From Gemmatimonadota bacterium (GTDB taxonomy: Bacteria > Gemmatimonadota > Gemmatimonadetes > Gemmatimonadales > Gemmatimonadaceae): a DNA stretch of 60,343 nucleotides. Location: positions 1-60,343 of the forward strand of contig JANYKA010000033.1 of NCBI GenBank assembly GCA_025358315.1. The letters are read 5' to 3'. Below the pieces are notes generated by a model that saw nothing but the letters and a program-made list of their open reading frames with translations, was not told the DNA's origin and made no database searches. Positions 33,704 to 51,977 of the stretch are shown here, piece by piece (position 1 is the stretch's first letter; each line of letters begins with the position of its first letter). The position numbers were made by a program, and so were the translations under genes.

Positions 33704-33719
33704 AATTCTTGGTCGGCGC

Positions 33720-34160: not shown

Positions 34161-34204
34161 GCGATGCACAGTTTTATTTCCTTTTTCGGTTGACCGGGGG
34201 AACG

Positions 34205-36525: not shown

Positions 36526-36527
36526 AC

Positions 36528-37139
36528 GTGGACGACATCCGCAATCTGAAGGCGCTGCAACTCGACGCGCTGCGTGAGGTCTCCAATATGGGCGCTGGTC
36601 ACGCGGCGACGGCGTTGAGCCAGATGACCGGTCAGAAGATCATGATCAGTGTGCCGCATCTGACCATCTCGAAGCTCGAGGATGTGCCGAACCAGATCGA
36701 GGCGCGCGAAGAACCCGTCGCGGCTGTCCTGATGAAGATGCTCGGCGATCTCACTGGACTGACGCTATTGGTATTTTCGCAGCAGACCGCCTTGAAAGTG
36801 GCCGGACTGATGATGCGGAAACCCGCGACGACGCTGGGTGAGATTGAGCAGTCGGCGCTGAAGGAGGCAGGCAACATCCTCAGTGCGGCATATCTCAACG
36901 CGCTGAGCGAATTCATGGGCATGATTCTGATGCCGTCGCCGCCGACACTGGTGATCGATATGTCCGATGCCGTGCTCAATGAGACGTATCTCGAGGTTGC
37001 GCAACAGTCCGAATATGTTTTTTGTGTCGAGAGTGAGTTCGAACTGATGGAAAGCAATGAACGGCTCCGCGGATTCTTTCTGCTGATGCCGGACGTCGGC
37101 AGCCTGCACGCCATCCTGCGCGCGACGCGGGTCGCGTAG
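36528..37139 (+). CDS. cheC: CheC-type CheY-P phosphatase
   Basis: A 203-residue protein with both CheC phosphatase motifs: E17/N20 in ALREVSNMGAGHAATAL and E113/N116 in ALKEAGNILSAAYLNAL. GTG 36528 is chosen because GGAG (36517-36520) lies seven bases upstream; the TTG at 36522 would sit on top of it. CheC removes phosphate from CheY and binds CheD, whose gene also lies in this cluster, so a CheC-CheD feedback loop is likely. Confidence 0.92.
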   Translation: MDDIRNLKALQLDALREVSNMGAGHAATALSQMTGQKIMISVPHLTISKLEDVPNQIEAREEPVAAVLMKMLGDLTGLTLLVFSQQTALKVAGLMMRKPATTLGEIEQSALKEAGNILSAAYLNALSEFMGMILMPSPPTLVIDMSDAVLNETYLEVAQQSEYVFCVESEFELMESNERLRGFFLLMPDVGSLHAILRATRVA

Positions 37140-37147: not shown

Positions 37148-39856
37148 ATGGCTGTCACTCTGGCCTCCGATCGCGATCGCGAGACTCTCAAGAGTTTCGC
37201 GCGCCGCATTGATCCTTCCGATGCCGGAGCCCACAACAATCTGGGCGTGCTCTACTACAACAAGGGGTTGTACGAAGAAGCCGTTGCGGCGTTCACAAAA
37301 GCGCTGGAACTCGACGCAAAAATGCAGGTGGCGCAGCGCAACCTTGAGGTCGCGTATTTCAACACCGGGTATTACGATAAACGGGTAGCGCAGCTTCGCG
37401 AGAAACTGCGTCATCGGGTGGACGATCGTGACGCCCGATGGGAGCTGGGCCGGGCATACGCGCTACTCGGGCAGAACGAAGAAGCGATTGCCGAATTCAC
37501 GGCGCTGTTGCGACACCATCCCAACGATTTGGGCGCGATTGTCCAGTTGGGATCGGCCGAAAAGGCCAGCGGGAGCCTGGCGTCGGCCCAACATTGGTTC
37601 GAGGACGCGATTCGGCTCGACCCATCGAGCTCAGTGACGCATTTTTATTTGGGTGAAGTGCTCTACAATCAGGGGCGTCACGACGAATCGCTCGACGCGC
37701 TCAAGCGCGCCATCGAACTCAATCCGGAAAATCCGGATGCGCACTTTCTGCTGAGTTTTGTCTACGGGGATACGGGTCGTCACGCCGAAGCGGCAGCGGC
37801 AAGTAAGCGCGCCGTACAACTCAATCCGACCCTGTCACACGCGCACGCCAATCTTTCGCTCGACCAGTACAATCCCCAAAAATACGAAGAGTTGCTCCCG
37901 GGCCGCCAAGAACAGCGGGCGCAGCGTCAGATGCAGGTGGCCGAAGGCGAGCAGCTTGCTCACTACAACCTCGGGTTGGCGTTTCGCCAAAAGGGGTACT
38001 ACGCCGAAGCGCAGCGTGAGTACCGGTTGGCCCTGGATCGCGGTGAAGATCGTGGGCTCGTGCTTCAGGCGATGGCCGAGGTCCACTTGCTGCGCCAGGA
38101 TTCCGCCGCGGCGATCGAACTCTACGATCAACTCATCGTCGAAAAACCGGACAGCCCGAAACTCTGGAACGAGCGCGGTGTGGCGCTGCACCAGAATGGC
38201 CGGTACGCCGAAGCGGCGGAAAGTTATCGTCGCGCCCTGTCTGCTGATGCCCGATATGCGATCGCCCATAACAATCTTGGCGTTGCCCTGTATCACGCCG
38301 ATGAACGCGAACAAGCAGTGGACGCATTTCGCGCGGCGCTGGATGCGAATCCGTCATTTGCAAAGGCGCGATTGAATCTGGCGTTACTGCTTGGTAAGAG
38401 TCACCGCTTTCAGTTGGCCCTTGAGGCGTATCGTCAGGTTTTGGTAACGGAGCCCGCGAATCCGACGGCGTGGAACGGCATTGGTGTGGTGCTCGCGGAA
38501 CTGCGCAAGTTCGAAGATGCCCGCAACGCTTTCGCGAGGGCGATTCAAGGACGTCCGAATTTTGCCGAAGCGCATTACAACCTGAGTTTTACGCTGTCCA
38601 ACCTCGGCGATTTCGACGGCGCACTCCGTGAGACCAAGCGCGCGCTCGAGCTTGATCCGTTTTATGTGCCGCAGAAATTCTCGCTGGCCATCGACCTCGA
38701 GTACGAAGATCCGGATTTGTCAGTGGTGCCCGACCTCGGCGGCGAAAAGCGCATGAGTGGCGAGGTCGATGCATTCTCGTTCGACCCGCGGTTGCTCGAC
38801 ACTCTGTTCAGCGAACTGGCGCCGCCGCCCGAGCCGTCCCCGCAAGTGATGGTCGAGGCCGATGCGTTCACGATGGCTGGAGACTATCTCACCAAAGGGC
38901 TGTACGACCGCGCGCTCGCCGAGACCAGTCGGGCACTCGCCCGCGGTGGGAATGTCGCTGAAGGCCAGGCGATGTTGGGCGATATTTTATCGCGGCAAGG
39001 CGCGTACGGCGATGCCCTGGATAAATATCATGCCGCATTGTTAGCGCAACCCAATCATTTGCGCGCGCAGCGCGGCGAGGCACAGGCGCTACTGATGCTA
39101 GGTCGCGGTGCCGAAGCGCGCGAGGCGGCCGAGCGCCTCCTTGAGGCCGCTCCGGAAGATGTGGACGCCACCATGCTCGTTGCCACCTGCCGTTTTGAGT
39201 CCGGCGATCCCGCGGCGGCTCTCGACGCATTGGATATCGCGCGTCGCCTCGCGCCGGCGCGCGCCGATGTGCTGCGCTGGATTGGCAACATCACCCGCTC
39301 GCTCGGCGATGTGGACGGCGCCATTGCCGCATACCGCCATGCGCTGCAACTCGATGGTGACTTTGCCGCGGTGCGCTTTGATCTCGCCGCGTTACTGATG
39401 CAGCGGGAGATGTGGGCGGACGCGGAGCAGGAATTACTCGCCGCGCTTGATGCCGTGCCGACCTATACGGAAGCGACGCTGCAGCTCACGACCCTCCGCC
39501 GAATGACCGGACGTCATCTCGATGCCGTGCATATGCTGGTGGATCTGTTGCAGCGCGATCCGTACAGCTTCGACGGCCTTATCGCCCTTGGCGAGACACT
39601 GCTTGAACTCGGACGGGCAAGCGATGCGGGTGTCGCATTCCGGCGCGTTCTGGCGTTCGATCCGGAACATGTCGGCGCCATCTTTTACGACGGTGTGTTG
39701 CTGGCGCGGCAGAAGCGCTATCGCGACGCGATTGCGCAGTGGGAACGCGTGGTGGATCTGGAACCTGCCGGGGAGTACGGGCGCCGGGCGCGTCGTGAAT
39801 CACGAACGGCGAGCGACCTGCTCAAGGTGTTTGGCGAACGGTTCGAGGAGAACTGA
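37148..39856 (+). CDS. Large TPR-repeat protein, 902 residues
   Basis: The protein is nearly all tetratricopeptide repeats, in two blocks (about residues 25-520 and 575-890). Typical repeat starts are AHNNLGVLYYNKGLYEEAV, LWNERGVALHQNGRYAEAA and AHYNLSFTLSNLGDFDGAL. Between them is a linker without repeats containing DPDLSVVPDLGGEKRMSG. No signal peptide or membrane helix is seen, so it should be a cytoplasmic scaffold. Its tight spacing (8 bases after cheC, 2 before the DUF4388 gene) says it is co-expressed with the Che and Mgl parts. Partner unknown. Confidence 0.88.
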   Translation: MAVTLASDRDRETLKSFARRIDPSDAGAHNNLGVLYYNKGLYEEAVAAFTKALELDAKMQVAQRNLEVAYFNTGYYDKRVAQLREKLRHRVDDRDARWELGRAYALLGQNEEAIAEFTALLRHHPNDLGAIVQLGSAEKASGSLASAQHWFEDAIRLDPSSSVTHFYLGEVLYNQGRHDESLDALKRAIELNPENPDAHFLLSFVYGDTGRHAEAAAASKRAVQLNPTLSHAHANLSLDQYNPQKYEELLPGRQEQRAQRQMQVAEGEQLAHYNLGLAFRQKGYYAEAQREYRLALDRGEDRGLVLQAMAEVHLLRQDSAAAIELYDQLIVEKPDSPKLWNERGVALHQNGRYAEAAESYRRALSADARYAIAHNNLGVALYHADEREQAVDAFRAALDANPSFAKARLNLALLLGKSHRFQLALEAYRQVLVTEPANPTAWNGIGVVLAELRKFEDARNAFARAIQGRPNFAEAHYNLSFTLSNLGDFDGALRETKRALELDPFYVPQKFSLAIDLEYEDPDLSVVPDLGGEKRMSGEVDAFSFDPRLLDTLFSELAPPPEPSPQVMVEADAFTMAGDYLTKGLYDRALAETSRALARGGNVAEGQAMLGDILSRQGAYGDALDKYHAALLAQPNHLRAQRGEAQALLMLGRGAEAREAAERLLEAAPEDVDATMLVATCRFESGDPAAALDALDIARRLAPARADVLRWIGNITRSLGDVDGAIAAYRHALQLDGDFAAVRFDLAALLMQREMWADAEQELLAALDAVPTYTEATLQLTTLRRMTGRHLDAVHMLVDLLQRDPYSFDGLIALGETLLELGRASDAGVAFRRVLAFDPEHVGAIFYDGVLLARQKRYRDAIAQWERVVDLEPAGEYGRRARRESRTASDLLKVFGERFEEN

Positions 39857-39858: not shown

Positions 39859-40899
39859 GTGGCGATCGAAGGCCCGCTGCGCGAACTCGGCATCCATGAT
39901 GTCTTCCAGCTACTTGACCTGAGCCGGAAGACGGGGACGCTGGCGGTCAGCTCCGAGCTTCGCGACAACGAAGGCACCGTGCTGTTCGAGAAAGGCCGGG
40001 TGGTGGCGGCAACCATCAAGAGCAATCCGCATCGCATTGGCGAGCTGTTGCTGCGATCCGGCAAGGTCACGGAAGGTGACGTCATCAAAGCGCGGTCGGC
40101 GCAGTCGGAGCACGGCGATCAGCGGCGCCTTGGTGAGATTCTTCTCGAGATGGGGGCGATTTCTCCGAAAGAACTGGAGCGTCAGATCCGGCTGCAAATC
40201 GAGGCCGTGGTATTTGAATTATTATCGTGGCGCGAAGGGTTCTTCCGGTACGAGGAAGGCGACATCGGTGAGCGCGCGATGATTCAGATCTCGACGGAGT
40301 CGCTGCTCATGGAAGGGGCGCGTCGCATCGACGAATGGTCGCGCATTGCCGACCGGGTTCCGAGCCTGGCGGCCGTGCCGGTGCTGGCACCGGTGCAAGA
40401 GGACCATGCGCCGATGCTGGATCTCTTGCCGCACGAATGGGAAGTCCTGGGGATGATCGATGGTGCGAACGATTTGCGCGCACTGGCAGCAATGCTCTCG
40501 CGCAGTGAATTCGATGTCGCAAAGATTGTGTACGGTCTGGTAAGCACGGGTGTGGTTGAATTAAAAGTTCCGACGGAATTCGCCGATCGTGTTACTACCC
40601 GCGTGCCGACGCCGATCATGCCGATGCGTGCCGTGTCTGGCGCCGTGACGGCATCGCCGGTACAAGTGCCGCCGGTGCCGCAGGAACCGTCGCGTGACGA
40701 ACCGCCCACGGCGGAAGAAGTGGACGATCTCGAGCGCGGGTTTCGCGCATTGAAGCGCGGCGATTTTGACGGGGCTGTCAAAGCGTGGGCTCAGCTACTG
40801 CAAACCCATCCGCGTCACGAGATGGCCGAGAAGATTCGCGGCGGCCTCGAGTCGGCCGCCCGTCTGCGCAGCCTGATGGAGGCGCGCTATGGTGACTGA
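39859..40899 (+). CDS. DUF4388/PATAN-domain protein (first paralogue)
   Basis: A 346-residue protein. Residues 1-100 form a DUF4388 (PATAN) domain: GPLRELGIHDVFQLLDLSRKTGTL and EGTVLFEKGRVVAATI. Next comes a helical region LGEILLEMGAISPKELERQI followed by LLMEGARRIDEWSRI, shared with the second DUF4388 protein encoded at 45.1 kb. A low-complexity Pro/Val segment (about 255-285) leads to a single TPR-like hairpin at the end. PATAN domains are known from motility regulators, where PATAN-CheY proteins can contact a type IV pilus motor. GTG 39859 is the start. Confidence 0.85.
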   Translation: MAIEGPLRELGIHDVFQLLDLSRKTGTLAVSSELRDNEGTVLFEKGRVVAATIKSNPHRIGELLLRSGKVTEGDVIKARSAQSEHGDQRRLGEILLEMGAISPKELERQIRLQIEAVVFELLSWREGFFRYEEGDIGERAMIQISTESLLMEGARRIDEWSRIADRVPSLAAVPVLAPVQEDHAPMLDLLPHEWEVLGMIDGANDLRALAAMLSRSEFDVAKIVYGLVSTGVVELKVPTEFADRVTTRVPTPIMPMRAVSGAVTASPVQVPPVPQEPSRDEPPTAEEVDDLERGFRALKRGDFDGAVKAWAQLLQTHPRHEMAEKIRGGLESAARLRSLMEARYGD

Positions 40900-41755
40900 T
40901 GACATTCGCGCCCTCAGCGAGGCGTTGGCCGCCGATCCATCGAGTACGGTATTTCTGCAACTGGGTGAAGCGCTGCGTCGTCAGGGCCAGGTGGAGCTCG
41001 CGTACCGCGTGGCAACCCGTGGACTCGAACGGCATTCGCAACGCTTTGAGGTGCACGATCTGGTGGCTCGAATTGCCGTCGACCGCGGCGATTTTGCCCG
41101 CGCCCGCACGGAGTGGGAGACAGTGCTGCTGTTGTCTCCTGGTCACAGTGGCGCGCAAAAGGGACTCGGATTTCTCTGTTTTCAACAGGGCGAACTCGCC
41201 GCCGCGTCGCGCTATCTTGGCGCGGCACTGGAAGCAAGTCCCGGCGACCAGTCGTTGTCGGCCGCACTCGATACCGTGCGCGCCGCGATCGCCGATGAAC
41301 AGCGTGCTCCGTGGGATCGCCCGACCGCCGGGCTTCCCGCGACTGCCGGGGCGCTGGAGTCGCCGGCCCGTCCGTTTGCCGCGCAACCCGCAGATGCGCG
41401 CACGCTCTTTGCCGAGGTGCTTGGTGATGCGCCCCAGACGGCGTTGTTGATTGACGCGGATGGCTATGTGGTGGCTGGCGATTATGTCACTGCGGATGGA
41501 CACGATCTTGGCGCGGATCTCGGCGCACAATTGTCCGGCGTGAGCGACGAAGCGTCGCGCGCCATGCGGCACCTTGGGCTCGGTAAATGGAAGCAGATCG
41601 TGTTTGAATCCGAGGCCGCCAGTGTGGCGATGGCGCCGTGCGGGGAAGGTGTGCTGCTGGTCGCGGCACCACGCACCGTGCCGCTGGGTTTCGTGCGACG
41701 GCTACTGGAGCGCTCGCTGGACCGCGCCCGCCGGTGGTTGGAGAGTGGGACGTGA
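40889..41755 (+). CDS. TPR protein with C-terminal roadblock/LC7 domain
   Basis: A 288-residue protein. Residues about 10-130 are TPR-like (VFLQLGEALRRQGQVELAYRVA, AQKGLGFLCFQQGELAAA). After a Pro/Ala-rich linker, residues about 165-285 form a roadblock/LC7 fold: QTALLIDADGYVVAGDY, then VFESEAASVAMAPCGEGVLLVAAPRTVPLGFVRRLL (core cited: VLLVAAPRTVPLG). Roadblock proteins such as MglB regulate Ras-like GTPases. It overlaps its neighbours at both ends, and an MglA-type GTPase is encoded three genes later. Confidence 0.82.
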   Translation: MVTDDIRALSEALAADPSSTVFLQLGEALRRQGQVELAYRVATRGLERHSQRFEVHDLVARIAVDRGDFARARTEWETVLLLSPGHSGAQKGLGFLCFQQGELAAASRYLGAALEASPGDQSLSAALDTVRAAIADEQRAPWDRPTAGLPATAGALESPARPFAAQPADARTLFAEVLGDAPQTALLIDADGYVVAGDYVTADGHDLGADLGAQLSGVSDEASRAMRHLGLGKWKQIVFESEAASVAMAPCGEGVLLVAAPRTVPLGFVRRLLERSLDRARRWLESGT

Positions 41756-42099
41756 GCAGTCCATTTACCCAGACGCTCTCTGCGCTCATCCGCCATCGGG
41801 GGGTCACCGGTTGCATGGTAGTGGGCGAAGCCGACGGGATGATCGTGGATTCCAGCTTGCAGATTGGCGTCAATGGCAGCGCCGTTGCCGCCCTCACGGC
41901 GTCGATGTATCGCAAAGCACAGCGGGCGTCCGCGTCCGCCGGCTTTGGGACCACCGGATTTTTCGAGTTAGATGCGGAAGGCGGCCGGGTGTGTGCGGCC
42001 GGACGGAATGAGATGGTGCTGGTGGTAGTAGCTGGTGCGAAGGTGAATGTTGGAATTATTCGCGTGGAAATGCTCAAAGCGCTGGAGTCGTTTCCGTGA
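41752..42099 (+). CDS. Roadblock/LC7 protein (MglB-like), short
   Basis: A 115-residue protein that is a single roadblock/LC7 domain: FTQTLSALIRHRGVTGCMVVGEADGMIVDS, then NEMVLVVVAGAKVNVGIIRVEM (shown in part, core VLVVVAGAKVNVGIIRVEM). The size and the closing VGIIRVEM strand-helix match MglB/LC7 GTPase regulators. GTG 41752 overlaps the upstream stop as GTGA. It is a good candidate GAP or co-factor for the MglA-like GTPase encoded two genes downstream. Confidence 0.85.
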   Translation: MSSPFTQTLSALIRHRGVTGCMVVGEADGMIVDSSLQIGVNGSAVAALTASMYRKAQRASASAGFGTTGFFELDAEGGRVCAAGRNEMVLVVVAGAKVNVGIIRVEMLKALESFP

Positions 42100-42566
42100 G
42101 ATTGACGGTGGCGGCGTCATGGGTTGAAGCGCCGCTCAAGGCGTTCGTCGATGACGGTCGCGTGCGGCTCGCCATTCTGCTGCATTCGAGTGGGCAAGTG
42201 CTGGGCCAGTTCGGGTTCGCGCGTTCCGTGGACGTGATGACCGCGTGTGCGTTGGCCGCGGCGACGGCCGCGAGTTCGTCGGAGTTGGGCCGGCTGATCG
42301 ATGGCCGACCGTTTAATACAATGCATTATGTTGGAGTCACGCAGCAGATTTTTCTTGCCCCGGTGCCGATTGACGGGGGAAAGCTGATACTGCTCGCGGT
42401 CTTCGACGAAGACAGTTCGCTGGGTCTTGTGCAACTATTCTTTCAGGAATTTTGTGCGAGTGTCAAGGCGATTGCTCCGGCTGCATCGGCCAGCGAACCC
42501 GCGCTCGACGCAGATTTTGAACGCGAGCTCAACCGTAATTTGGCAGTGATGTTCGGGCGCGCCTGA
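42096..42566 (+). CDS. Third roadblock/LC7-like protein
   Basis: A 156-residue protein with the roadblock pattern: LAILLHSSGQVLGQFGFARSVDVM, a central helix, FLAPVPIDGGKLILLAVFDEDSSLGLVQLFF (core: GKLILLAVFDEDSSLGLVQ) and an extra C-terminal helix of about 35 residues. The match is weaker than for the previous gene. It starts at GTG 42096, overlapping the previous stop. With the two genes before it, it makes three roadblock domains in a row directly upstream of the GTPase. Confidence 0.75.
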   Translation: MRLTVAASWVEAPLKAFVDDGRVRLAILLHSSGQVLGQFGFARSVDVMTACALAAATAASSSELGRLIDGRPFNTMHYVGVTQQIFLAPVPIDGGKLILLAVFDEDSSLGLVQLFFQEFCASVKAIAPAASASEPALDADFERELNRNLAVMFGRA

Positions 42567-42605: not shown

Positions 42606-43211
42606 GTGTCACTCGTCAACTACGCCACGCGCGAAATCACCTGCAAGATCGTCTACTACGGCCCGGGGCGGTCGGGGAAGACGACAAACCTTCATTACAT
42701 TTATGGGCAGGTGCCGGCTGAGCGGAAAGGGAAGATGGTTTCGCTCGCTACGCAAACCGACCGCACGCTGTTCTTTGATTTCCTGCCAATCGACCTCGGG
42801 ATAATTTCCGGTTTTACGACGCGGTTTCAGCTCTACACGGTTCCCGGCCAGGTCTATTATCAGACGACGCGCCGTTTAGTGCTGCAGGGCGCCGATGGCG
42901 TGGTATTTGTCGCCGACAGTCAAGCACGCCAACTGGGAGAGAACGTGGAATCGATGCAGGACTTGCATGCGAATCTGGTGAACTACGACGTTGATGTGCG
43001 TGAAATGCCTATGGTGATTCAATACAACAAGCAGGATTTGCCGGGTGATCTCATCATGACCGTTCCCGAATTGGAGGACCAGCTGAACTTTCGCAACGTG
43101 CCATCGTTTTCGGCCGATGCGTTGCACGGTCCGGGGGTGTTCGAAACGTTGCGGGCGATTTCTGAACAAGTGTTGCGCAAGCTGAGTCCAACGAGCGGGA
43201 GTAACGGATAA
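42606..43211 (+). CDS. mglA: MglA-type Ras-like polarity GTPase
   Basis: A 201-residue GTPase very similar to Myxococcus MglA along its length. It has REITCKIVYYGPGRSGKTTN (P-loop GPGRSGKT at residues 19-26), ETDRTLFFDF-like TQTDRTLFFDFLP, YTVPGQV with T78 in place of the usual Ras aspartate as in MglA, VVFVADSQ and the base motif NKQD. MglA switches cell polarity and gliding or twitching direction under Frz chemosensory control in myxobacteria. GTG 42606 has no strong ribosome site. One base separates it from the tandem DnaA-like gene. Confidence 0.94.
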   Translation: MSLVNYATREITCKIVYYGPGRSGKTTNLHYIYGQVPAERKGKMVSLATQTDRTLFFDFLPIDLGIISGFTTRFQLYTVPGQVYYQTTRRLVLQGADGVVFVADSQARQLGENVESMQDLHANLVNYDVDVREMPMVIQYNKQDLPGDLIMTVPELEDQLNFRNVPSFSADALHGPGVFETLRAISEQVLRKLSPTSGSNG

Positions 43212-43212: not shown

Positions 43213-45099
43213 GTGAAGCTCGATCAGCGACTCCGGTTCGACAGCTACGTCGTCGGTGCGGGCAACCGTCTGGCGGTCGCCGCGGCGCGCGCCGTCGCCG
43301 AATCACCGGGGTCCGTGTACAATCCGCTGTTCATCTATGGCGGCACCGGACTCGGGAAGACGCACCTGCTCGGCGGAATCGGCCGACTCGCTGAAGCGTT
43401 GCAGGAAAATCTGGAAATCGAATATCTGTCGCTCGAAGAATTCGTGGAGCAGTTGCATGCCGCAATATCGGCGGGACAGTTGGAGGCGTTCTCCAGTCGA
43501 TATGAGCGCGTCGGACTGCTCCTCATCGACGACGTGCAGTTTCTCACCGGTCGGCGCGAGACGCAGGCGGCATTGTTGAAGCTGTTCGAACGGATGCAGC
43601 GCGCTGGCGGACAGATTGTGCTGACCAGTGACCGTCCGCCGTCGGAAATTTCCGATGTGGATGAGCGGCTCGTCAGCCGCCTGTCCGGAGGCCTGATCGT
43701 CGATGTGACGGTGCCCGACTACGAAACCCGGGTGGCGATTCTGCGGGCGAACTGCGAAGAACGGCGTATCGTGTTCCGGGGCGGCGTGCTTGAGGAATTG
43801 GCGCGATTCAGTTTCAGCAATGTCCGCGAATTGCAGGGTGCGCTCAACCGGCTTGTCGCACACCAGGCCGCTGGAATCGAAGAGACGCCGCCTCCGGCGC
43901 CGGCGCCCGCCGACCGGCCGACGGGCGAGTTCGAAAGTTTTCTTTCCGAAGTCACTTCGGTGGTGCAACAGCATGTGGAGTCGTGGCAGGCCCGGCTCAC
44001 CGAGGCGGCGGAATATTGGAAAGGCGAAGGGTATCGCACGGCGGTACTCGAACGTGCGGTGTCGCTGCCGAAATCTCCGGACGTCGCGGGACTCCTCGCA
44101 ACGTTCAGCGCTGCCGTTGAACATTTGCGTGATCTCGAAAAGACCGCGTGCTCGGTGGATCCTTCGCTGGGGAGTAATCCGGTGTTTCGCGATCCGGAGC
44201 GGATGGCACAGGCAGAGGACTTGGTGGAACGGGCACTGGCCGGTGAGACGCCCCCCAACGGTCCGAGCACTGAATATGATCGCGCGTCGTACGATGTTGG
44301 TTCGTCGAACCAGGTGGCGGTGCATGCGGCAGACGCAATTGTCGCTGAGCCGGGCGTCAGGTACAACCCGTTGGTGTTGCATGGTCCAAGCGGCGTCGGC
44401 AAGACACATCTCGCGAATGCCATCGGCAATGCGTTAGCCAAAGGCAAGGGCATCCCCGTGACGGTGGCGTGCGTGCATGCGCAAAAATTTATCGACGAAT
44501 TGATTTCCGCAATTCAGGGCGGTACCGTCGAGCGGTGGCGGGCCCGGTATCGCTCGGTCGGGGCGCTGATCATTGACGACGTGCAGTTCGTGGCGGGCAA
44601 GGAGCGCACGCAGGATGAATTTTTCCTCCTGTTCAACTCGCTGGTCGGTGCGAATAAGCAGATCGTCTTAACCAGCGACCGTGCGCCCGCAGAAATTCCG
44701 GAACTCGCGGCGCGGTTGCGTTCGCGCTTTGAGGGCGGTTTGGTCGTGCCGATTCAGTCACCCGATCGGCCGTTGCGGGAGCTGTTGTTCACCCGTTTCC
44801 TCAGCGCCGCCGGCCGCGAAGCGGACGACGCCCTGCTTGGCGTGCTCAGTGAACAGTCGGTGCAAAGTGTCCGCGAGATCATCGGCACCGTGAATCGCCT
44901 TGGCGCCGTTGCCGAAGCCAGCGGTACGCCGCTCACGGCGCAACTGGCCCGAGGCGAACTCGGGATGGCCACACCGTTTGCCGGCGGCACGGCGGTCGCA
45001 TCGCCAAGTGCCACAGCGGATCCGGTGTTTCTCAACAACGAAAAAATTGTGAGGGAGTGGCCAGATGTCACGGCGCGCGTGATAGAGGAATTCCGCTAA
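43213..45099 (+). CDS. Tandem DnaA-type AAA+ ATPase lacking the DnaA DNA-binding domain
   Basis: A 628-residue protein with two DnaA-like ATPase modules. Module 1 (1-220): Walker A GGTGLGKT 43-50 in YNPLFIYGGTGLGKTHLLG, Walker B LLLIDD 102-107, sensor 1 IVLTSDRPPSEI, arginines R152/R156 in ERLVSRLSGG, sensor 2 NVRELQGA 203-210. Module 2 (360-570): Walker A GPSGVGKT 391-398, Walker B ALIIDD 451-456, IVLTSDRAPAEI, ARLRSRFEGG, SVREIIG 552-558. A helical linker (about 240-345) separates them. The C terminus (570-628) has no domain-IV helix-turn-helix. Both ATP sites look intact. Function unknown; Hda- or DnaC-like regulatory roles are known for other DnaA-domain paralogues. Confidence 0.9.
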   Translation: MKLDQRLRFDSYVVGAGNRLAVAAARAVAESPGSVYNPLFIYGGTGLGKTHLLGGIGRLAEALQENLEIEYLSLEEFVEQLHAAISAGQLEAFSSRYERVGLLLIDDVQFLTGRRETQAALLKLFERMQRAGGQIVLTSDRPPSEISDVDERLVSRLSGGLIVDVTVPDYETRVAILRANCEERRIVFRGGVLEELARFSFSNVRELQGALNRLVAHQAAGIEETPPPAPAPADRPTGEFESFLSEVTSVVQQHVESWQARLTEAAEYWKGEGYRTAVLERAVSLPKSPDVAGLLATFSAAVEHLRDLEKTACSVDPSLGSNPVFRDPERMAQAEDLVERALAGETPPNGPSTEYDRASYDVGSSNQVAVHAADAIVAEPGVRYNPLVLHGPSGVGKTHLANAIGNALAKGKGIPVTVACVHAQKFIDELISAIQGGTVERWRARYRSVGALIIDDVQFVAGKERTQDEFFLLFNSLVGANKQIVLTSDRAPAEIPELAARLRSRFEGGLVVPIQSPDRPLRELLFTRFLSAAGREADDALLGVLSEQSVQSVREIIGTVNRLGAVAEASGTPLTAQLARGELGMATPFAGGTAVASPSATADPVFLNNEKIVREWPDVTARVIEEFR

Positions 45100-46718
45100 T
45101 GGCCATCAAGGGCAGTCTCAAGGAGGCCAGTCTCCCGGACGTGTTGCAACTGCTGTCGATGGGCAAGAAATCCGGATGCCTGTCGGTGACGCATCGCAAT
45201 AATTTTGGATCAATCTTTTTCGACAAGGGGAAGATCAGCTATGCGGCGATCGTCAACCGCCGCGACCGGCTCGGCGACATTCTGACCAAGAGTGGCGCGA
45301 TCACCGTTGAACAGCTGGATGTGGCGATCGAGGCACAGGGGAAAGAACGTGATAAGCGGCTTGGTGAAATTCTCGTCGGATTGGGGATCATCTCGAAGGA
45401 AGAGTTGCATAAGCAGATTCGTATTCAGATTGAAGAAGCGGTCTATTTTCTGTTTACGTGGACGCAGGGCACGTTCAATTTCGAAGCCGACATCCGGCCG
45501 GAAGAGCAGGACTTTCTTGTCCAGATCAATCCCGAGTCGCTGCTGCTGGAGGGGGCGCGGCGGGTGGACGAGTGGAGTCTGATCGAAAAGAAAATTCCGT
45601 CGTTTGATATCGTGTTTGATGTCGACCGCAAGCGGCTCGACGCAAGCGGCGCCAAGCTGACGCGCGAACAGGAAAGTCTGTTGCCGCTCATCGACGGGCG
45701 CCGTGATGTTGGCGCGCTGATCGAAGATTCGGGATTTGTCGAATTCGAAGTCGGCAAGGCACTGTACGGCCTTTCGAACGCCGGATTCCTGCACAAAGTC
45801 GGCAAGACGCGAGCGCCGGACGTCATGGCTCCTGATGCACGCATCGAAGAGCACCGCAATCTCGGTGTCGCATTCTATAAGACCGGCATGCTTGACGAGG
45901 CCGAGCGGGAATTCCGGCGCGTGGCCGAACTGCGGCCGGGCGACCAGCAATCGCGGTTCTATCTGGGACTTGCGCATATCCGGCTTGGCCAGTGGGAAGA
46001 GGCCGTTGCCGATTTCGAAGTCGTCACCGCTGCCCGAACCGCGGGCGCCGCGGCATTCCACAATCTTGCGTTCGCGTTCGAACGCATGGGGGCGTTCGCG
46101 AAAGCGCATGACGCGCTACGCGAGGCCGTCAAGCGCGGCGGCGACCGCGATCCGCGGGTGCTCACCTCACTGGGTGTGTTGGCGTTGCGCGAAGGTGATT
46201 TGGAATCGGCAACGGCGTCATTCATCGCCGCGCGGTCGTTGGGTACGGCGCGTGCGCCGTCGCCGGCGTGGTTCCACTATGCTGCGCTCGCTTCCGCGCT
46301 TGCCGGCCGCACCGACGACGCGATTGCCACACTCCTCGATGGGACGCAGGCGTATCCGCACTCGGCGGTGCTGTACAACAATCTGGCGGTCGCGCTGGAA
46401 CGCAAAGGCAAGTTTGATGATGCGCTGGTTGCGGCGGAGCACGGTGTCGTGGAAGACACTGGCATTGCCCAGCTACACAAGAACATCGGCGACGCGCATT
46501 ACCGCGCGGGCCGATTCGACGATGCGTTTGAAGCGTATCAGCGTGCGGTAAAGTTCAACGACGTCCTCGGCCCCGATATGTGGCAAAAACTCGGGAATAT
46601 CAAACTCAGGCGGCGGGAACGCGACGACGCGATCCGCTTTTGGGAGCGTTCCTTGGCGCTTGATCCGGACAATCCGATCGTCCGGCAGAATATCGAGGCG
46701 GCGAAGGAATTGCCGTGA
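45099..46718 (+). CDS. DUF4388/PATAN-TPR protein (second paralogue)
   Basis: A 539-residue protein starting at ATG 45099, with GAGGA nine bases upstream. Residues 1-100 are DUF4388/PATAN (GSLKEASLPDVLQLLSMGKKSG, GSIFFDKGKISYAAIV). The following block LGEILVGLGIISKEELHKQI and ESLLLEGARRVDEWSLIEKK matches the paralogue at 39.9 kb segment by segment. From about residue 260 to the end are TPR repeats (HRNLGVAFYKTGMLDEAEREF, LYNNLAVALERKGKFDDAL). It probably acts as an adaptor. It overlaps the tandem DnaA-like gene by one base (TAATG) and cheR by four. Confidence 0.87.
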   Translation: MAIKGSLKEASLPDVLQLLSMGKKSGCLSVTHRNNFGSIFFDKGKISYAAIVNRRDRLGDILTKSGAITVEQLDVAIEAQGKERDKRLGEILVGLGIISKEELHKQIRIQIEEAVYFLFTWTQGTFNFEADIRPEEQDFLVQINPESLLLEGARRVDEWSLIEKKIPSFDIVFDVDRKRLDASGAKLTREQESLLPLIDGRRDVGALIEDSGFVEFEVGKALYGLSNAGFLHKVGKTRAPDVMAPDARIEEHRNLGVAFYKTGMLDEAEREFRRVAELRPGDQQSRFYLGLAHIRLGQWEEAVADFEVVTAARTAGAAAFHNLAFAFERMGAFAKAHDALREAVKRGGDRDPRVLTSLGVLALREGDLESATASFIAARSLGTARAPSPAWFHYAALASALAGRTDDAIATLLDGTQAYPHSAVLYNNLAVALERKGKFDDALVAAEHGVVEDTGIAQLHKNIGDAHYRAGRFDDAFEAYQRAVKFNDVLGPDMWQKLGNIKLRRRERDDAIRFWERSLALDPDNPIVRQNIEAAKELP

Positions 46719-47545
46719 GCGCTTCGGCCGACGACGCCGAGTCGTTCATGGCGCTGACGGAGAAGATTTCCCGTGAGCGCGGATTCGGCACCGCGAGCTA
46801 CAAGGACGGGTGCCTGCGGCGCCGCATTGCCGTGCGCATGCGGGCCAACCGCGTGGACGATTACGCGGCATACAGTCATTTGCTCGACCGCGACCCACTG
46901 GAATTCGATCGTCTGCTCGACGCGTTAACAATCAATGTGACGAAGTTGTTTCGGAACAACGATGCGTGGGAAGCGGTCGCTGCGACGGTGCTGCCGGAGT
47001 TGTGGTCTGGAGAGTCTGCCCGAATTCAGAACTGGGTCGCCGGTTGTGCGTCCGGAGAAGAAGCGTACACACTGGCCGCGTTGTGGCACGAGCACGTGAC
47101 GGCCCACCCGGCCGCCGGCGCGCTTGGACGGGTGCGTATCACGGCGAGTGATATAGATCGTCGATCGTTGATCGCCGCAGAGGTGGGCGCGTTCGTCCCG
47201 GAAGCGCTGACGGAAACGCCGGACAGCATGCGTACCCGATATTTCGCGCACATGGATACGGACGGGCGCGCGCATGCGGCACCGGAGCTACGGGACATGA
47301 TCCGCTTCGAACGGCGCGACTTGCTGTCAGAGCCGCCGCCAGCGGGTGCGATCCATCTTATTACGTGTCGCAACGTCATCATCTATTTTGATCGCCCGTC
47401 GCAAGAAGCGCTGATGGAGCGCTTTCACCATGCACTCGCCGTGGGCGGTTTTCTCGTGTTAGGGAAGGTCGAGACGTTGCTGGGTCCGTCGCGCCTGCTG
47501 TTCGACGTGGTCGACCAACGCAACCGCATCTTCCGCCGCGCGTGA
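46715..47545 (+). CDS. cheR: CheR receptor methyltransferase
   Basis: A 276-residue SAM-dependent enzyme. The N-terminal helical domain has CLRRRIAVRMRANRVDDYAAY and TINVTKLFRN. The SAM site is WVAGCASGEEAYTLA, and ITASDIDRRSLIAAEVG, LITCRNVIIYFD and GGFLVLGKVETL complete the fold. It methylates glutamates of chemoreceptors, so receptors must exist elsewhere in the genome. It starts at GTG 46715 and overlaps both neighbours. Confidence 0.95.
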   Translation: MSASADDAESFMALTEKISRERGFGTASYKDGCLRRRIAVRMRANRVDDYAAYSHLLDRDPLEFDRLLDALTINVTKLFRNNDAWEAVAATVLPELWSGESARIQNWVAGCASGEEAYTLAALWHEHVTAHPAAGALGRVRITASDIDRRSLIAAEVGAFVPEALTETPDSMRTRYFAHMDTDGRAHAAPELRDMIRFERRDLLSEPPPAGAIHLITCRNVIIYFDRPSQEALMERFHHALAVGGFLVLGKVETLLGPSRLLFDVVDQRNRIFRRA

Positions 47546-48018
47546 CGGATCAACGCGTGCGTATCGCCCATCACGCTGTGAGGCGCGGGAGCGGCCGGTT
47601 GGTGACGGTCGGACTCGGGTCGTGCGTGGCCATCGCACTGCACGACGCATTGGCACGAGTCGGCGGGTTGGCGCACGTACTGCTACCGCAAGTGATCGGG
47701 GGGCAGGGCGAGCCGAACCGGGCAAAGTTCGCATCGACGGCCGTACCGTTGCTCATCGAAGATATGCGTGCTCTTGGAGCATCCGGCCCGTTCGTGGCCA
47801 AGCTTGCCGGCGGCGCTTCGCTGTTTGGCCCGTTGCTGGCGATGGGAGGGTCCGTGGGCGCCCGCAACATCGCGGCCGCACGGGCCGCGCTGCAAGACGC
47901 GCGAGTGCCATTGATTGGCGAGGATGTCGGCGGCATGGCCGGTCGCACGGTCACACTCGATGTGGCCACCGGCACATTTCTGGTGAAGACCGTGCGCGGA
48001 GGGGAACGTGCTATCTAA
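47542..48018 (+). CDS. cheD: CheD chemoreceptor glutamine deamidase
   Basis: A 158-residue protein with the catalytic pair C28 (TVGLGSCVAIAL) and H45 (GGLAHVLLP), one residue offset from Thermotoga CheD (C27/H44). IGARNI-like VGARNIAAARAAL and GEDVGGMAGRTVTLDVATG are conserved. It deamidates receptor glutamines and activates CheC, whose gene is in the same cluster. It overlaps cheB by 11 bases. Confidence 0.94.
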   Translation: MTDQRVRIAHHAVRRGSGRLVTVGLGSCVAIALHDALARVGGLAHVLLPQVIGGQGEPNRAKFASTAVPLLIEDMRALGASGPFVAKLAGGASLFGPLLAMGGSVGARNIAAARAALQDARVPLIGEDVGGMAGRTVTLDVATGTFLVKTVRGGERAI

Positions 48019-49120
48019 GCCGCGTTCCGTGCTGGTCGTAGATGACAGTGCGCTGATTCGCACCATGGTGCGTGAGGTGATCGCCGAGTTTGGCGACTTT
48101 GTCGTCGTGGGCACGGCACGCGATGGTGCCGATGCCCTGAGGCAGGTGCACGAACTAAACCCCGATATTGTCACGCTCGACATTGAGATGCCCGGGATGG
48201 ACGGCATTGCCACGCTCCGCGAACTGATGCGAGATGCCCCGCGTCCGGTGGTGATGCTTAGCGGAGCCGAAACTCGCGGTGATGTGGATCTGACGCTCCT
48301 GGCACTGGAACTTGGCGCGGTGGATTTTGTGCGCAAGCCGAATGCGGCGGGCACGCAGCAAGTGCGGCAGGTCGCCGAACGACTGCATGAAGCGTTGCGA
48401 GCGGCCGCGATAGTAAACCTGCGCGGCCCTGCCGCAGCGGCGGCAGCGGCCGGGATGCCGGCGATCCGGCGGACGCCCACCGGGTTACGCCGGGTGACGC
48501 CCGATACCCGGGCTGCGCGAGCCGCGGTCGCGATTGCCAGCAGCACGGGAGGGCCTCGCGCCCTTATGGAAATAATCCCGGGATTCGGTCGCGAACTTGA
48601 TGCTGCGGTACTGATTGCGCAGCACATGCCGCCGGGATTTACCGCCGGACTGGCGCGCCGGCTGAACGACGAGTCGGTACTCGCGGTGACCGAGGCGCGC
48701 GATGGCGAACCGCTTTTACCAAACCACGTGTATGTCGCGCCGGGCGGATGGCACATGCGGGTGCGCGGTGTAGAGCACGGCGTCGGGCACAGTGCGAGAA
48801 TCGTACTTGACGACTCTCCGACCGTATGGGGCGTGCGACCAGCCGCCGATCTGTTGTTTGTATCAGTGGCGGAATTGTTTGGATCGGCGTCGGTCGGCGT
48901 CGTCCTCACCGGAATGGGGCGCGACGGCAGCGCCGGCCTTGCCGCCATTCGAGCGGCTGGCGGCGGCGCCGTGGTGCAAGACCGCGATTCCGCGACGATT
49001 TATGGAATGCCGCTGGCCGCGCTCGAAAGTGCCGGTGCCGATCGCGTGGTGTCACTCCACGGTGTTACAGCGGCGGTGGAGACGTTGCTTCATGCCCGCC
49101 GCGACGGAGCGTCCCGATGA
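48008..49120 (+). CDS. cheB: CheB receptor methylesterase/deamidase
   Basis: A 370-residue two-domain protein. The receiver (1-125) has D58 in IVTLDIEMPGMDG. A Pro/Ala linker leads to the esterase domain, with the catalytic serine in IASSTGGP (S179), histidine in IAQHMPPGFT and aspartate in TGMGRDGSAG. It removes methyl groups from receptors when phosphorylated by CheA. It begins at GTG 48008 inside the end of cheD and overlaps the next cheW (ATGA). Confidence 0.95.
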   Translation: MLSKPRSVLVVDDSALIRTMVREVIAEFGDFVVVGTARDGADALRQVHELNPDIVTLDIEMPGMDGIATLRELMRDAPRPVVMLSGAETRGDVDLTLLALELGAVDFVRKPNAAGTQQVRQVAERLHEALRAAAIVNLRGPAAAAAAAGMPAIRRTPTGLRRVTPDTRAARAAVAIASSTGGPRALMEIIPGFGRELDAAVLIAQHMPPGFTAGLARRLNDESVLAVTEARDGEPLLPNHVYVAPGGWHMRVRGVEHGVGHSARIVLDDSPTVWGVRPAADLLFVSVAELFGSASVGVVLTGMGRDGSAGLAAIRAAGGGAVVQDRDSATIYGMPLAALESAGADRVVSLHGVTAAVETLLHARRDGASR

Positions 49121-49605
49121 TCTCAGTGGCAACTGCGGTGCCCGAACGCGGGGCAGCGCGCCCGCTGCACGTCGTCGCCCGAGTGGGAGGAGAGCGGTTT
49201 GCTTTTCCGGTCACCGACGTCGAAGAGGTGATCGATGCTCCGCAGATCGACTGGGTTCCCGGCGCTGCCCACGGGCTCGCGGGGCAGATGCGGTATCGTG
49301 ACCGCACGGTGAGTGCATTCGACGGTGGCTGGGCGCTGGGAGTGACGCGTACCGCAGATGGCGGCACGGCGCTCATTCTGCGCGACGGCACCCGCCGCTT
49401 CGCGGTGATGGTGGATGATGTCGACGACTTGACATCGTTCGCGCCTGACGCGGTGCACGCCGTGCCGGCTGGCACCGATAGTGATGGCGTACTGTCTGGT
49501 GTGTGGTTGGCGGGTGCGGCGCAGCTAGTGGGGCTCGTCAATACCGAGGCGCTGTTGATTCGTCTAGCAACGTTCGGCGCATCTGCCATTGGAGACGCAC
49601 AATAA
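49117..49605 (+). CDS. cheW: CheW-like protein (second copy)
   Basis: A 162-residue CheW-domain protein: HVVARVGGERFAFPVTDVEEVID, VPGAAHGLAGQMRYRDRTVSAFD and FAVMVDDVDDLTSF. The central LINLRG motif is changed to LAGQMRYRDR, so it is more divergent than the other copies. ATG 49117 overlaps the cheB stop, and GGAG precedes it by seven bases. It may link a different receptor set, or act as an adaptor with altered CheA contact. Confidence 0.85.
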   Translation: MISVATAVPERGAARPLHVVARVGGERFAFPVTDVEEVIDAPQIDWVPGAAHGLAGQMRYRDRTVSAFDGGWALGVTRTADGGTALILRDGTRRFAVMVDDVDDLTSFAPDAVHAVPAGTDSDGVLSGVWLAGAAQLVGLVNTEALLIRLATFGASAIGDAQ

Positions 49606-50093
49606 TGAACGCGACGGAAAAGTCCGGGCGCACCCAACTGGTGGTCTTTCGGGTGGGCGACGATCGTTTTGCAGCCGACATTTTTGCGGTCGAGCGTGTG
49701 CTGCGGTTCACCGCGCCGAGACCGATCCCCAATGTTCCCGCCTGGCTCGAAGGCGTGATGGATTACGGCGGCCGCGTGGTGCCCGTCATCGATTTGCGAA
49801 TGCGTTTTGAGTTGCCGGCGGCGTCGTCACGGGAGTCTGCTCGGATTCTTGTCGTGGTTGCCGGTGATGAATGGATCGCCGCCGTCGTCGACGGGGTTGA
49901 TGAAGTGATCACCGTGACCGCCGCGCAACTGGAGCCGCCGCCGCCGTTGTTCAAAGGACTGGCGAAACAATATCTTCGCGCGTTGGTGCGGCGCAGTGAT
50001 CACGTCATCGTGGCGCTGGACGTTGCGCAACTGCTCACGGCGCGGGAGCAAGTGATTCTCGAACAGGTTGTGGCGGGGGCGGCGCATGTCTGA
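49605..50093 (+). CDS. cheW: CheW-like protein (third copy)
   Basis: A 162-residue CheW domain: LVVFRVGDDRFAADIFAVERVLRF, NVPAWLEGVMDYGGRVVPVIDLRMRF and WIAAVVDGVDEVITV. The landmark LEGVMDYGGRVVPVIDLR is close to canonical CheW. The start at ATG 49605 shares one base with the previous stop (TAATG), and its end overlaps the next TPR gene by eight bases. Confidence 0.9.
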   Translation: MNATEKSGRTQLVVFRVGDDRFAADIFAVERVLRFTAPRPIPNVPAWLEGVMDYGGRVVPVIDLRMRFELPAASSRESARILVVVAGDEWIAAVVDGVDEVITVTAAQLEPPPPLFKGLAKQYLRALVRRSDHVIVALDVAQLLTAREQVILEQVVAGAAHV

Positions 50094-50949
50094 CGAAACA
50101 CTGGCAACGTACAAATCCAGATTTTCCGATATCGACGCGCGGCTCGATACCACCCTCGCCGATCCGGACCGGGCGAAGGTCAAGGGCGAGATCATCACGC
50201 TGTTTAAGAGCGTTGAGCAACAGGTGACAGAGCTGTCGGCGTTGAAGGACGACATCAAAAAACTTGTCGACAAGTTCAAGGCCCAGCAGACCGCAGCGTC
50301 GCCGTCGCTGGCACCGCAATTTACCGGCGATCGTCCCATGGTTCATGCCGATCATATTGGCGCGTCGACGTTCATTGAAAAAGGGTGGAGCCGCCTCTCA
50401 CTCGGTGACTACGACGGCGCCGAGGCGGCGCTCAACAAGGCGATTGCGCTGTCGCCGGGCGATCCGCAAAGCGAGGCGCTACTGGGGTGGGCGCAGATGC
50501 TGAACGAAAAATACGACGATGCCATGATGAGTTTTCAAAAAGTGCTGATGCGCGAACCGCAGAATGCGCTGGCGCGTATAAATGTCGGTTACATTTGTTT
50601 GAAGAAAGGCATTTTTGGCGAGTCCATTGAACATTTGTCGAAGGCCATCCGGCTTGACAACGACAAGAAGGCCACCCTGTATGCGCATTTTTATCTCGGT
50701 CTCGTGTATCTCGAACGTGAAATGTATGAAGACGCGGAAACATTTTTCCAGAAGACCTTGGTGCTGGGTCCGAATTTGATTGAGGCGTATTACGAACTTG
50801 GGCGCTCCTATTGGTTCAACGAGCAGACCGAGGATGCAAAGGAAACGTGGAAAAAGGGTTTCGCGACCAACAAGTTCAATCCGTGGGGGAAGCGCTGCGC
50901 CGAATTGCTGGCGGTTGTGGAGGCCGGAGGGCAGCCACCAAAGAACTGA
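50086..50949 (+). CDS. Coiled-coil/TPR protein of the chemosensory cluster
   Basis: A 287-residue protein. Residues 1-70 are helical and heptad-like (VKGEIITLFKSVEQQVTELSALKDDIKKLV; core EQQVTELSALKDDIKKLV). From about residue 95 there are four or five TPR repeats (AINVGYICLKKGIFGESIEHL-like ARINVGYICLKKGIFGE, YELGRSYWFNEQTEDAKETW). No signal peptide is seen. It is translationally coupled to the third cheW and to the peptidase gene that follows. Role unknown, probably an assembly or adaptor protein. Confidence 0.82.
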   Translation: MSDETLATYKSRFSDIDARLDTTLADPDRAKVKGEIITLFKSVEQQVTELSALKDDIKKLVDKFKAQQTAASPSLAPQFTGDRPMVHADHIGASTFIEKGWSRLSLGDYDGAEAALNKAIALSPGDPQSEALLGWAQMLNEKYDDAMMSFQKVLMREPQNALARINVGYICLKKGIFGESIEHLSKAIRLDNDKKATLYAHFYLGLVYLEREMYEDAETFFQKTLVLGPNLIEAYYELGRSYWFNEQTEDAKETWKKGFATNKFNPWGKRCAELLAVVEAGGQPPKN

Positions 50950-51977
50950 TGGCGCGAGAAATCTTCCCGGCCGGTTCGCATTTGCGGGCCCGTGTGCTCG
51001 GTCTGCTGATGGTGTGCAGTATTCTGGCTTCGCCGGCAACATCACAAACGTTGGCGTTACCCGCCGACGCTATTCGCTTGGACAGTGGCCGGTTCACCTT
51101 TGTGGCCTTCCCCAAGGATGAGCGTCTGGCGCGGTCGTTGCTCAAGCAGGTGCTGACGACCGACACGTTCCCCGGATTGCCCCGACCGACCACACACGCC
51201 GTGATTCAGATCGCGCCGGATATGCGCCGATTCCGTGATTGGATCGGGCCGGGTGCGCCGGAGTGGGGTGCGGCCATCGCGATCCCGGAGGAAGGCCGGA
51301 TTGTATTGCAGGGAAGCGCCGCGAATTCAGCGGCGGGCAACCCGCGTGTGACGGTGCGTCATGAGCTGGCCCATCTGGCGCTGTACAATGTGCTCGGGCA
51401 TATGCCGCCGCGCTGGTTCGACGAAGGCTATGCCTCCTATGCCGCCCGCGAATGGGGGCGCGACGAACTGCTGGCAACGAACGCCGCCCTGGTGCTGCGC
51501 GGCATGCCACATTTCGAAAATCTTGACCGCTATTTCTATAGTGGGGAATCGCGTGCCCAGCAGGGATATGCGCTCGCCCAGCGAGCGGTTGCGGAAATCG
51601 CCGAGTTGGATCGGGAGCGCGGCCTGTCGCTGTTTTTTGTGCGGTGGCGCGAAACGCAGTCGTTTGACGTGGCACTGCGGCGGGCCTACGGCGTGACCGA
51701 GCCCGAGATGGAAGCGCGCTGGCGCTCCAACACCCGGCGTCGCTATGGCGGGCTGGCCCTCTTCGCCGACGTGACCGTTGGTGCCTTGGCGCTATTGTTG
51801 TTGCTCGGCCCCGCGTGGATTGCGCGCCGTCGCCGGGATCGGCGTCGGCTCGCGCAAATGCGGGTTGCCGATGCCGCTCAGGAGGCCCGTGAACGCGAAA
51901 GCGCACTTGAAGCGCTACTATCGGGTATTATTCATAAGTCGCCGCCGGATTCCGGTCCCGAACAGGGCGCGGGGTGA
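50949..51977 (+). CDS. Exported peptidase-MA-like gluzincin with C-terminal membrane anchor
   Basis: A 342-residue protein. A signal peptide covers about residues 1-33 (VLGLLMVCSILASPATSQ). The zinc motif HELAH has H138, E139 and H142, and E159 in RWFDEGYASYAAREW is the likely third ligand, giving a peptidase-MA-like layout. Near the C terminus one membrane helix (FADVTVGALALLLLLGPAW) is followed by a basic cytoplasmic tail. The catalytic domain should face the periplasm. It overlaps the upstream TPR gene by one base and ends the long operon. Confidence 0.83.
   Translation: MAREIFPAGSHLRARVLGLLMVCSILASPATSQTLALPADAIRLDSGRFTFVAFPKDERLARSLLKQVLTTDTFPGLPRPTTHAVIQIAPDMRRFRDWIGPGAPEWGAAIAIPEEGRIVLQGSAANSAAGNPRVTVRHELAHLALYNVLGHMPPRWFDEGYASYAAREWGRDELLATNAALVLRGMPHFENLDRYFYSGESRAQQGYALAQRAVAEIAELDRERGLSLFFVRWRETQSFDVALRRAYGVTEPEMEARWRSNTRRRYGGLALFADVTVGALALLLLLGPAWIARRRRDRRRLAQMRVADAAQEARERESALEALLSGIIHKSPPDSGPEQGAG

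Follow-up and report, generated by a model that had tools for sequence, protein, structure and literature searches.

A tandem DnaA-type AAA+ protein beside MglA in a chemosensory operon of Gemmatimonadota

Background

DnaA-type AAA+ proteins are assembly switches, and the AAA+ module of DnaA is known as a part of the replication apparatus. Two such modules lie in a single polypeptide that is encoded at positions 43213-45099, forward strand, of a 60,343-nucleotide stretch from a Gemmatimonadota bacterium (assembly GCA_025358315.1, contig JANYKA010000033.1; this whole stretch is called the window from here on). The gene for this tandem protein is located between the genes for an MglA-type small GTPase and for a protein that combines DUF4388, which we take to be the PATAN domain, with tetratricopeptide repeats (TPR). 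We refer to this position as the slot and to its products in related genomes as slot proteins.

The closest described protein is DnaA (TIGR00362; domain III structures 8bv3, 2z4r and 1l8q), with which the tandem protein shares the AAA+ fold of domain III, the Walker motifs, the arginine finger and sensor 2. It differs from DnaA by having two modules, by lacking domains I and IV, and by the placement of both modules outside the DnaA group. Hda, the regulatory inactivator of DnaA that binds the sliding clamp and stimulates ATP hydrolysis by DnaA, is likewise a DnaA-type AAA+ protein without domain IV. The tandem protein, in contrast, is built from two modules joined by a long linker, ends in a conserved tail, is encoded in a signalling operon and scores below the cut-off of the Hda model.

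With regard to signalling, the MglA/Frz/SgmX polarity network of Myxococcus xanthus resembles the present locus in its MglA GTPase, Roadblock proteins, TPR protein and Che-type pathway; here, in contrast, the parts stand in one operon, which also encodes DUF4388 proteins as well as a protein of the DnaA type. The MglA effector SgmX, a TPR protein, was reported to act on pili in M. xanthus (PMC11580455). In cyanobacteria, the pilus regulators PixE, PixG and TaxP2 similarly place PATAN downstream of a chemotaxis-like pathway, and PATAN regulators were reported to bind the pilus motor PilB (PMC9090330, PMC10519157). Unlike in these regulators, DUF4388 is fused to TPRs in the present operon and is paired with a putative DnaA-type adaptor. 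The proximity of MglA to PATAN genes was already reported in a survey of prokaryotic small GTPases, in the main text of which DnaA is not mentioned (PMC4316618). Among the papers listed by full-text literature searches, with most subscription journals outside their coverage, none described a DnaA protein of tandem build or an association of DnaA with MglA. An initial sequence-only reading of the window had stated that known DnaA-domain paralogues have one module and had taken the tandem form to suggest a new use.

Results

The tandem gene is an uninterrupted open reading frame (ORF) of 628 residues; it starts with GTG, and its stop codon shares one base with the ATG of the following gene. The proposal of two complete DnaA-type modules in one chain held: PF00308 (Bac_DnaA) has one match at 43219-43704 (177.5 bits, E 3.7e-52) and a second one at 44287-44748 (168.2 bits, E 2.8e-49). 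Based on these matches and on the alignment, module 1 extends over residues 3-220 (43219-43872) and module 2 over residues 353-585 (44269-44967), each corresponding to DnaA domain III. DnaA residue numbers (R285, R334, V211, R227, K243) refer to the alignment with Escherichia coli DnaA. Walker A, Walker B, the arginine finger (R285) and sensor 2 (R334) are intact in both modules. In module 1 these are found at 43339-43362 (Walker A), 43528-43533 (the Asp pair of Walker B), 43678-43680 (arginine finger R156) and 43825-43827 (sensor 2 R205), and in module 2 at 44383-44406, 44575-44580, 44725-44727 (R505) and 44872-44874 (R554), respectively, all on the forward strand.

Among solved structures, DnaA domain III was the best relative in a phmmer search (E 9e-54), and Foldseek of the AlphaFold model returned DnaA domain III as the best fold match as well (8bv3, 43% identity across the aligned part). 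The model reached a mean predicted local distance difference test score (pLDDT) of 83.8 and a predicted template modelling score (pTM) of 0.49; its individual domains look reliable, unlike their mutual arrangement. Over the whole length, Foldseek gave weak matches to AAA+ machines with two modules, p97 among them (query TM-score 0.25-0.30), which, with a root mean square deviation (rmsd) >20 and such low scores, indicate two AAA+ domains and nothing further.

The modules are separated by about 130 residues, slightly fewer than the roughly 140 first estimated, and the helical nature of this linker is supported by the model. The linker domain, delimited by AlphaFold helices and alignment, comprises residues 239-345 (43927-44247, forward strand) with helices at 239-272, 277-283, 291-315 and 328-342. 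The first helix has the consensus EFxxFLxxVxxxVxxxVE and is retained in the mini-forms described below. An identification of the linker as ABC_tran_CTD was considered and dropped as unconvincing (9 of 25 members match, best E 1e-4, the window's own linker without a match); likewise, nothing convincing was found for the linker among PDB sequences (best E 0.15) or by Foldseek (best E 3.8). The protein ends in a tail, residues 606-628 (45028-45096, forward strand), with the consensus EKxVWxWPxxxxRxIEExR, in which the window protein has Arg in place of the first Trp.

The tandem protein is without domain IV, the helix-turn-helix by which DnaA binds DnaA boxes, as had been predicted. Its last 69 residues gave no Pfam match even at E 10, nor did the corresponding C-terminal stretch in four relatives, and in the model residues 587-613 have a pLDDT <50, indicating disorder, before a single short helix at 619-627. 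As a control, the helix-turn-helix family PF08299 was matched by 20 of 20 ordinary single-module DnaA proteins from relatives. A degenerate helix-turn-helix in residues 570-628, which would have refuted the sequence-only reading, was not seen. Domain I was not matched at the N-terminus either, where module 1 already starts at residue 3; this is a weak criterion, as just 2 of the 20 ordinary DnaA proteins matched PF11638 at E 1e-10.

With PF00308, the ordinary DnaA of relatives reaches 222-245 bits, clearly more than either module. The NCBIfam equivalog model for DnaA (TIGR00362) gives 486.6 bits against a cut-off of 343.9, a score over two matched stretches that is therefore no proof of orthology. 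Since the cut-off is passed, automatic annotation would label the protein DnaA. The Hda profile, matched by a protein with two modules, stays at 147.8 bits, under its cut-off of 194.8. In the window's own genome, an 82% complete bin, PF00308 occurs only in the tandem protein. A role as substitute for a missing DnaA was nevertheless rejected, because genome G012, the slot protein of which is 96% identical to that of the window, also has an ordinary DnaA with domain IV, and because most genomes of the order have a separate DnaA-type match. Such a match was found in 57 of 61 genomes, the exceptions being G000 (the window's genome), G016, G018 and G038; 20 of the 57 were read for domain IV, which all 20 possess.

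The slot has a constant setting. In a census that counted GTPase matches within 1.3 kb upstream and DUF4388-TPR matches within 0.9 kb downstream, with 5 and 3 loci excluded for short flanks, 128 of the 133 loci with sufficient flank had the GTPase match, at a median gap of 9 bases, and all 135 had the DUF4388-TPR match, at a median gap of 2 bases. A set of 30 loci had the GTPase in 29, with 25 of the 29 gaps between -4 and +6 bases. Four gaps lay outside this range (21, 81, -223 and 36); three of them (L023, L026, L029) are artefacts of start codon choice, as longer versions of these loci show, and the fourth belongs to L018. When 24 loci were laid out, Roadblock, MglA, DnaA-type and DUF4388-TPR genes followed each other in that order in 16, and L113 showed the same order with a mini-form in the slot. 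A Roadblock match was lacking in L116 and L117, MglA was lacking in L130, and L114, L115, L121 and L122 were reduced. Within the genus (18 genomes), the cluster GTPase and the tandem protein were jointly present in 10 genomes and jointly absent in 8, among which G015 still has a slot ORF in reduced form and G005 a DUF4388-TPR ORF that is shortened. In two single-module clusters of family f6, an extra ~1.1-1.3 kb separates MglA from the slot protein (L163, 5259-6377; L168, 1863-3154).

The slot proteins vary in their modules. Linker ORFs were present in 149 of the 154 loci examined, and 138 of them were different. Modules stood on both sides of the linker in 115 of these (one cut by a contig end), only the first module was present in 18 (one cut by a contig end), no module in 3, and a first module below threshold in 2; second modules were truncated in several relatives. 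Five loci had no linker match. In three of them, L113, L114 and L115, MglA and DUF4388-TPR flank a short ORF with just the first linker helix and the tail. L121 combines a degenerate module 1 with the tail and has no GTPase, and the slot is lost in L122. The tail tryptophan is conserved in 135 of 136 complete C-terminal ends.

A tail profile was built from 116 tails of proteins with module 2 and used to search 34,781 ORFs from 2.92 Mb of loci, not whole genomes. The 177 matches at E <=1 were slot proteins, further copies and reduced slot ORFs, plus one chance match (0.51). The reduced ORFs were recovered in L121 (E 4e-10), L115 (2e-5), L113 (1e-4) and L114 (0.06), and all four matches end at the last or penultimate residue. 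The first-helix profile matched L114 (E 3e-4) and, weakly, L115 (0.5) and L113 (1.2). From these matches, the mini-forms are most likely homologous reduced slot proteins. As the census loci were found mostly via the linker, linker-less forms are under-counted: 117 of the 301 phylum genomes are without a linker match, and mini-forms there were met only through neighbour genes. The places in the phylum that match the linker profile were sampled in part, with family f5 (>30 genomes, mostly weak matches) represented by one genome. Taken together, the AAA+ modules are optional, and the linker helix and C-terminal tail form the retained core of the slot. Those reduced forms that are nested among tandem forms are likely losses.

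Selection was assessed by nonsynonymous and synonymous substitution rates (dN/dS), computed for seven pairs. Between the window and G012 the values were 0.016/0.671 for module 1, 0.022/0.629 for module 2 and 0.037/0.635 for the tail, with the spacer ahead of the tail looser at 0.108/0.580. More distant pairs gave higher, yet low ratios, and in the L011/L012 pair the tail and the first helix were under weaker constraint than the modules. These values indicate that both modules are under purifying selection.

The catalytic residues were inspected in 133 first and 117 second modules. The P-loop Lys is present in 132 and 113 of them, the arginine finger in 112 and 110, and the full catalytic set in 104 and 76, respectively; sensor 2 Arg is retained in 113 of the 133 first modules. 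Three further positions separate the copies. At the V211 position, 86 of the 133 first modules have His, whereas 107 of the 117 second modules have Ile or Val. R227 does not figure among the most frequent residues of module 1, but 108 second modules retain it, while K243 is retained in 8 first modules (Arg in 69, Gln in 26, His in 23) compared to 98 second modules. In E. coli DnaA, V211 and K243 were reported to matter for single-stranded DNA (ssDNA) (PMC8235120), contacts between neighbouring domains III to involve R285, R227, L290, R281 and K243 (PMC5742627), and R334 to have a part in ATP hydrolysis (PMC8235120, PMC5742627). Seen against these roles, the copies seem to differ in kind, with module 1 as the catalytic one and module 2 as the one for interfaces. 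The earlier suggestion that module 1 is closer to true DnaA stands only in part: its Pfam score is slightly higher and its catalytic set better conserved, but V211, R227 and K243 are mostly lost in module 1 and retained in module 2.

A careful tree of 53 of the 125 module sequences resolved module 1 (support 100/99), module 2 (100/94) and DnaA (95/89) as three separate groups, so that a phylogeny against DnaA places the tandem modules in two clades of their own. A quick tree of 114 of the 125 rows, with 11 near-copies or truncated modules left out, agrees (Shimodaira-Hasegawa-like approximate likelihood ratio test 99, 91 and 54 for module 1, module 2 and DnaA); in it, the modules of single-module proteins group with module 1. 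DnaA of Gemmatimonadota sits among other DnaA, hence the modules appear to be no recent copy of the local dnaA. Both trees are unrooted and join the three groups at one point, which is compatible with one duplication and with two recruitments alike.

Tandem proteins among the 80 loci listed in a scan of the collection came from four records, all Gemmatimonadota (L033-L036), and the linker profile matched 184 of the 301 genomes of this phylum. It had no match in the phylum to which a Myxococcales genome belongs (0 of 188 genomes) or in that of a Zixiibacteria genome (0 of 132), in searches without their own positive control, and none in 6 single genomes of other groups in a search in which two Gemmatimonadota genomes matched. 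We conclude from the profile matches that the tandem protein represents a conserved Gemmatimonadota family. In G218, a class-level genome with 6% contamination, two slot proteins were found (L178, L179), one of which groups with family f2; either contamination or transfer could account for the pair. In a tblastn search with module 1, 38 phage records matched, each at a single place; among the ten that were listed, DnaA was the annotation in two, and eight were unannotated.

The surrounding operon confirmed the earlier mention of an adjoining polarity GTPase in a signalling context. All genes are on the forward strand and were assigned by Pfam unless stated otherwise. Upstream of the tandem gene they comprise CheW (33651-34160), a receiver-domain stretch that was read in part (34160-34443), CheA (34444-36525), CheC/CheX (36522-37139), a 902-residue TPR protein (37148-39856), a first DUF4388 protein (39859-40899), a TPR-Roadblock protein (40889-41755), a Roadblock/LC7 protein (ORF 41638-42099, start probably near 41752), a Roadblock-like gene without a Pfam match, identified by position and relatives (42096-42566), and the MglA-type GTPase (42606-43211), which stops one base ahead of the tandem gene. 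For the Roadblock-like gene, relatives share the position in many of the 24 laid-out loci. Downstream follow the DUF4388-TPR gene (45099-46718), CheR (46715-47545), CheD (47542-48018), CheB (48008-49120), two CheW (49120-49605 and within 49503-50093), a TPR protein (50068-50949) and a protein with a Peptidase_MA_2 domain (within 50811-51977).

The GTPase matched solved MglA structures at E 5e-73, and its translation carries TVPGQ and DRT, hallmarks of group 1 with an Arg beside the G2 Thr, as given in the small GTPase survey (PMC4316618). The Roadblock, DUF4388 and Che genes all stand in one gene run with it. By these features, the neighbouring GTPase is identified as MglA itself, within a whole chemosensory operon. 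The upstream border (31873-34160) passes from signal peptidase II and a pseudouridine synthase to CheW, and at the downstream border (54198-58974) genes for a MraW methylase, a penicillin-binding protein and a Mur ligase bring cell-wall and division functions soon after the operon.

Discussion

We propose that the slot protein is an adaptor in a chemosensory/MglA/PATAN pathway and that its DnaA modules were reused as an ATP-gated self-assembly switch, a reading for and against which we see the chances as balanced. Three observations led to it: the fixed slot between MglA and DUF4388-TPR, the helix and tail that persist in the smallest forms, and the selected modules with their arginine fingers. 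The core of first linker helix and tail would link the MglA-type GTPase to the adjacent PATAN-TPR protein. The tail most likely docks onto the PATAN-TPR protein rather than MglA, as L121, L130, L261 and L182 have no GTPase in the locus but still encode both the slot protein and DUF4388-TPR. In most lineages examined, this core bears two DnaA-type AAA+ modules that presumably no longer serve replication; they may bind ATP and join end to end through DnaA-like contacts of an arginine finger with ATP. ATP would then gate a local polymer in which PATAN-TPR and MglA accumulate, probably at the cell pole and probably for the control of type IV pili. The partners, the polymer or oligomers, the polar site and the pilus output are what we infer here. 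For the output, type IV pili are likely by analogy, given the binding of PATAN to PilB and the action of SgmX on pili.

Within this proposal, the notion that the DnaA switch was taken over in duplicate, giving a DNA-free filament or ring scaffold in which module 1 provides catalysis and module 2 the interface, an ATP-gated signalling site at which MglA and PATAN-TPR are joined, is put forward more tentatively and somewhat short of an even chance. As a class of idea, the "ATP-driven assembly factor" of the sequence-only reading seems the best for the tandem protein.

Several observations weigh against the adaptor proposal. Of the 117 second modules, just 79 have the sensor 2 Arg, and 27 of the other 38 show a gap at this position. 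The modules can be lost, so ATP gating is not essential in every species, and the pTM of the full model leaves the module arrangement unsupported. The tie of the slot to MglA is looser than that to the PATAN-TPR protein, as L121 retains the tail and a portion of module 1 but neither linker nor GTPase, a linker and a diverged tail without GTPase are present in L130, L261 and L182, and L164 has no GTPase within 3.4 kb upstream. The diverged tails of L130, L261 and L182 also weaken the assignment of the tail to PATAN-TPR, which rests on few cases. Finally, all 61 genomes have PilT-family ATPases whether or not they carry the operon, and pili are thereby not singled out as the target.

A PilT paralogue that tracks the operon was considered at one point, as the genus seemed to divide by copy number (4-5 with the operon versus 2-3 without). 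It was rejected, because a direct search placed the paralogue in G013, G015 and G017, none of which has the tandem protein, and not in G009, which does have it. Independently of the operon, a PilT-type ATPase of ~400 residues (L228, L233, L234), near or under the PilT cut-off, is distributed over 12 of the 18 genus genomes, with a fragment in addition in G005, and occurs twice in the window's own genome (G000, C280 and C141).

The alternative that survives best, though unlikely, is a remodelling ATPase: the tandem AAA+ protein would act on MglA or the PATAN-TPR protein by exchange, release or disassembly, without any scaffold. The retention of the P-loop Lys and of full catalytic sets is in its favour, as are the weak whole-length matches to p97-like two-module machines. 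However, these matches have the large rmsd and low TM-scores given above, the modules can be lost, and assembly switching is the known role of the DnaA type.

A link to replication, as contemplated in the sequence-only reading, appears less likely than the adaptor proposal and, by itself, distinctly improbable. Here the modules would pair with genomic DnaA as Hda does, and the chemosensory/MglA pathway would tune initiation. A DnaA interface with its arginine finger is retained, chiefly in module 2, a partner is available in the genomes with a separate DnaA-type match, and Hda-type profiles do match. But the Hda score remains under its cut-off, the operon consists of signalling genes, several lineages lack one or both modules with the neighbours still in place, and the separate DnaA proteins that were read have their own domain IV.

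Very improbable is also that helix and tail alone matter and that the modules are structural ballast or disappearing. The reduced helix-and-tail forms in the same slot and the truncated second modules of several relatives fit this idea, but the two modules evolve under strong purifying selection (dN/dS of about 0.02-0.04 in the comparison with G012), and most first and second modules retain their motifs. Least probable of all is a DNA-dependent regulator with module 2 binding ssDNA via retained H/B-type residues, for although its Ile/Val at 211 and Lys at 243 match positions reported to touch ssDNA in DnaA (PMC8235120), domain IV is missing, module 2 is absent from 18 and both modules from 3 of the 138 slot ORFs, and R227 and K243 were also reported to make protein-protein contacts in DnaA (PMC5742627), which explains their retention without DNA.

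Conclusions

The tandem family is real, conserved and under selection, and undescribed as far as the literature was covered. Its architecture, motif integrity, purifying selection and synteny can all be read from the sequences, as can the loss of modules from proteins that still have the tail, and they point to a known kind of signalling operon and a known ATPase module combined in a place and form for which we found no precedent. Labelling of tandem proteins as DnaA can distort counts of initiators. Moreover, the natural two-, one- and no-module forms in one operon slot make the contribution of the ATPase directly testable. A replication switch has apparently left replication, been duplicated, with its residues shared out over the two copies, and become part of a small-GTPase signalling operon, and would thus provide an example of reuse.

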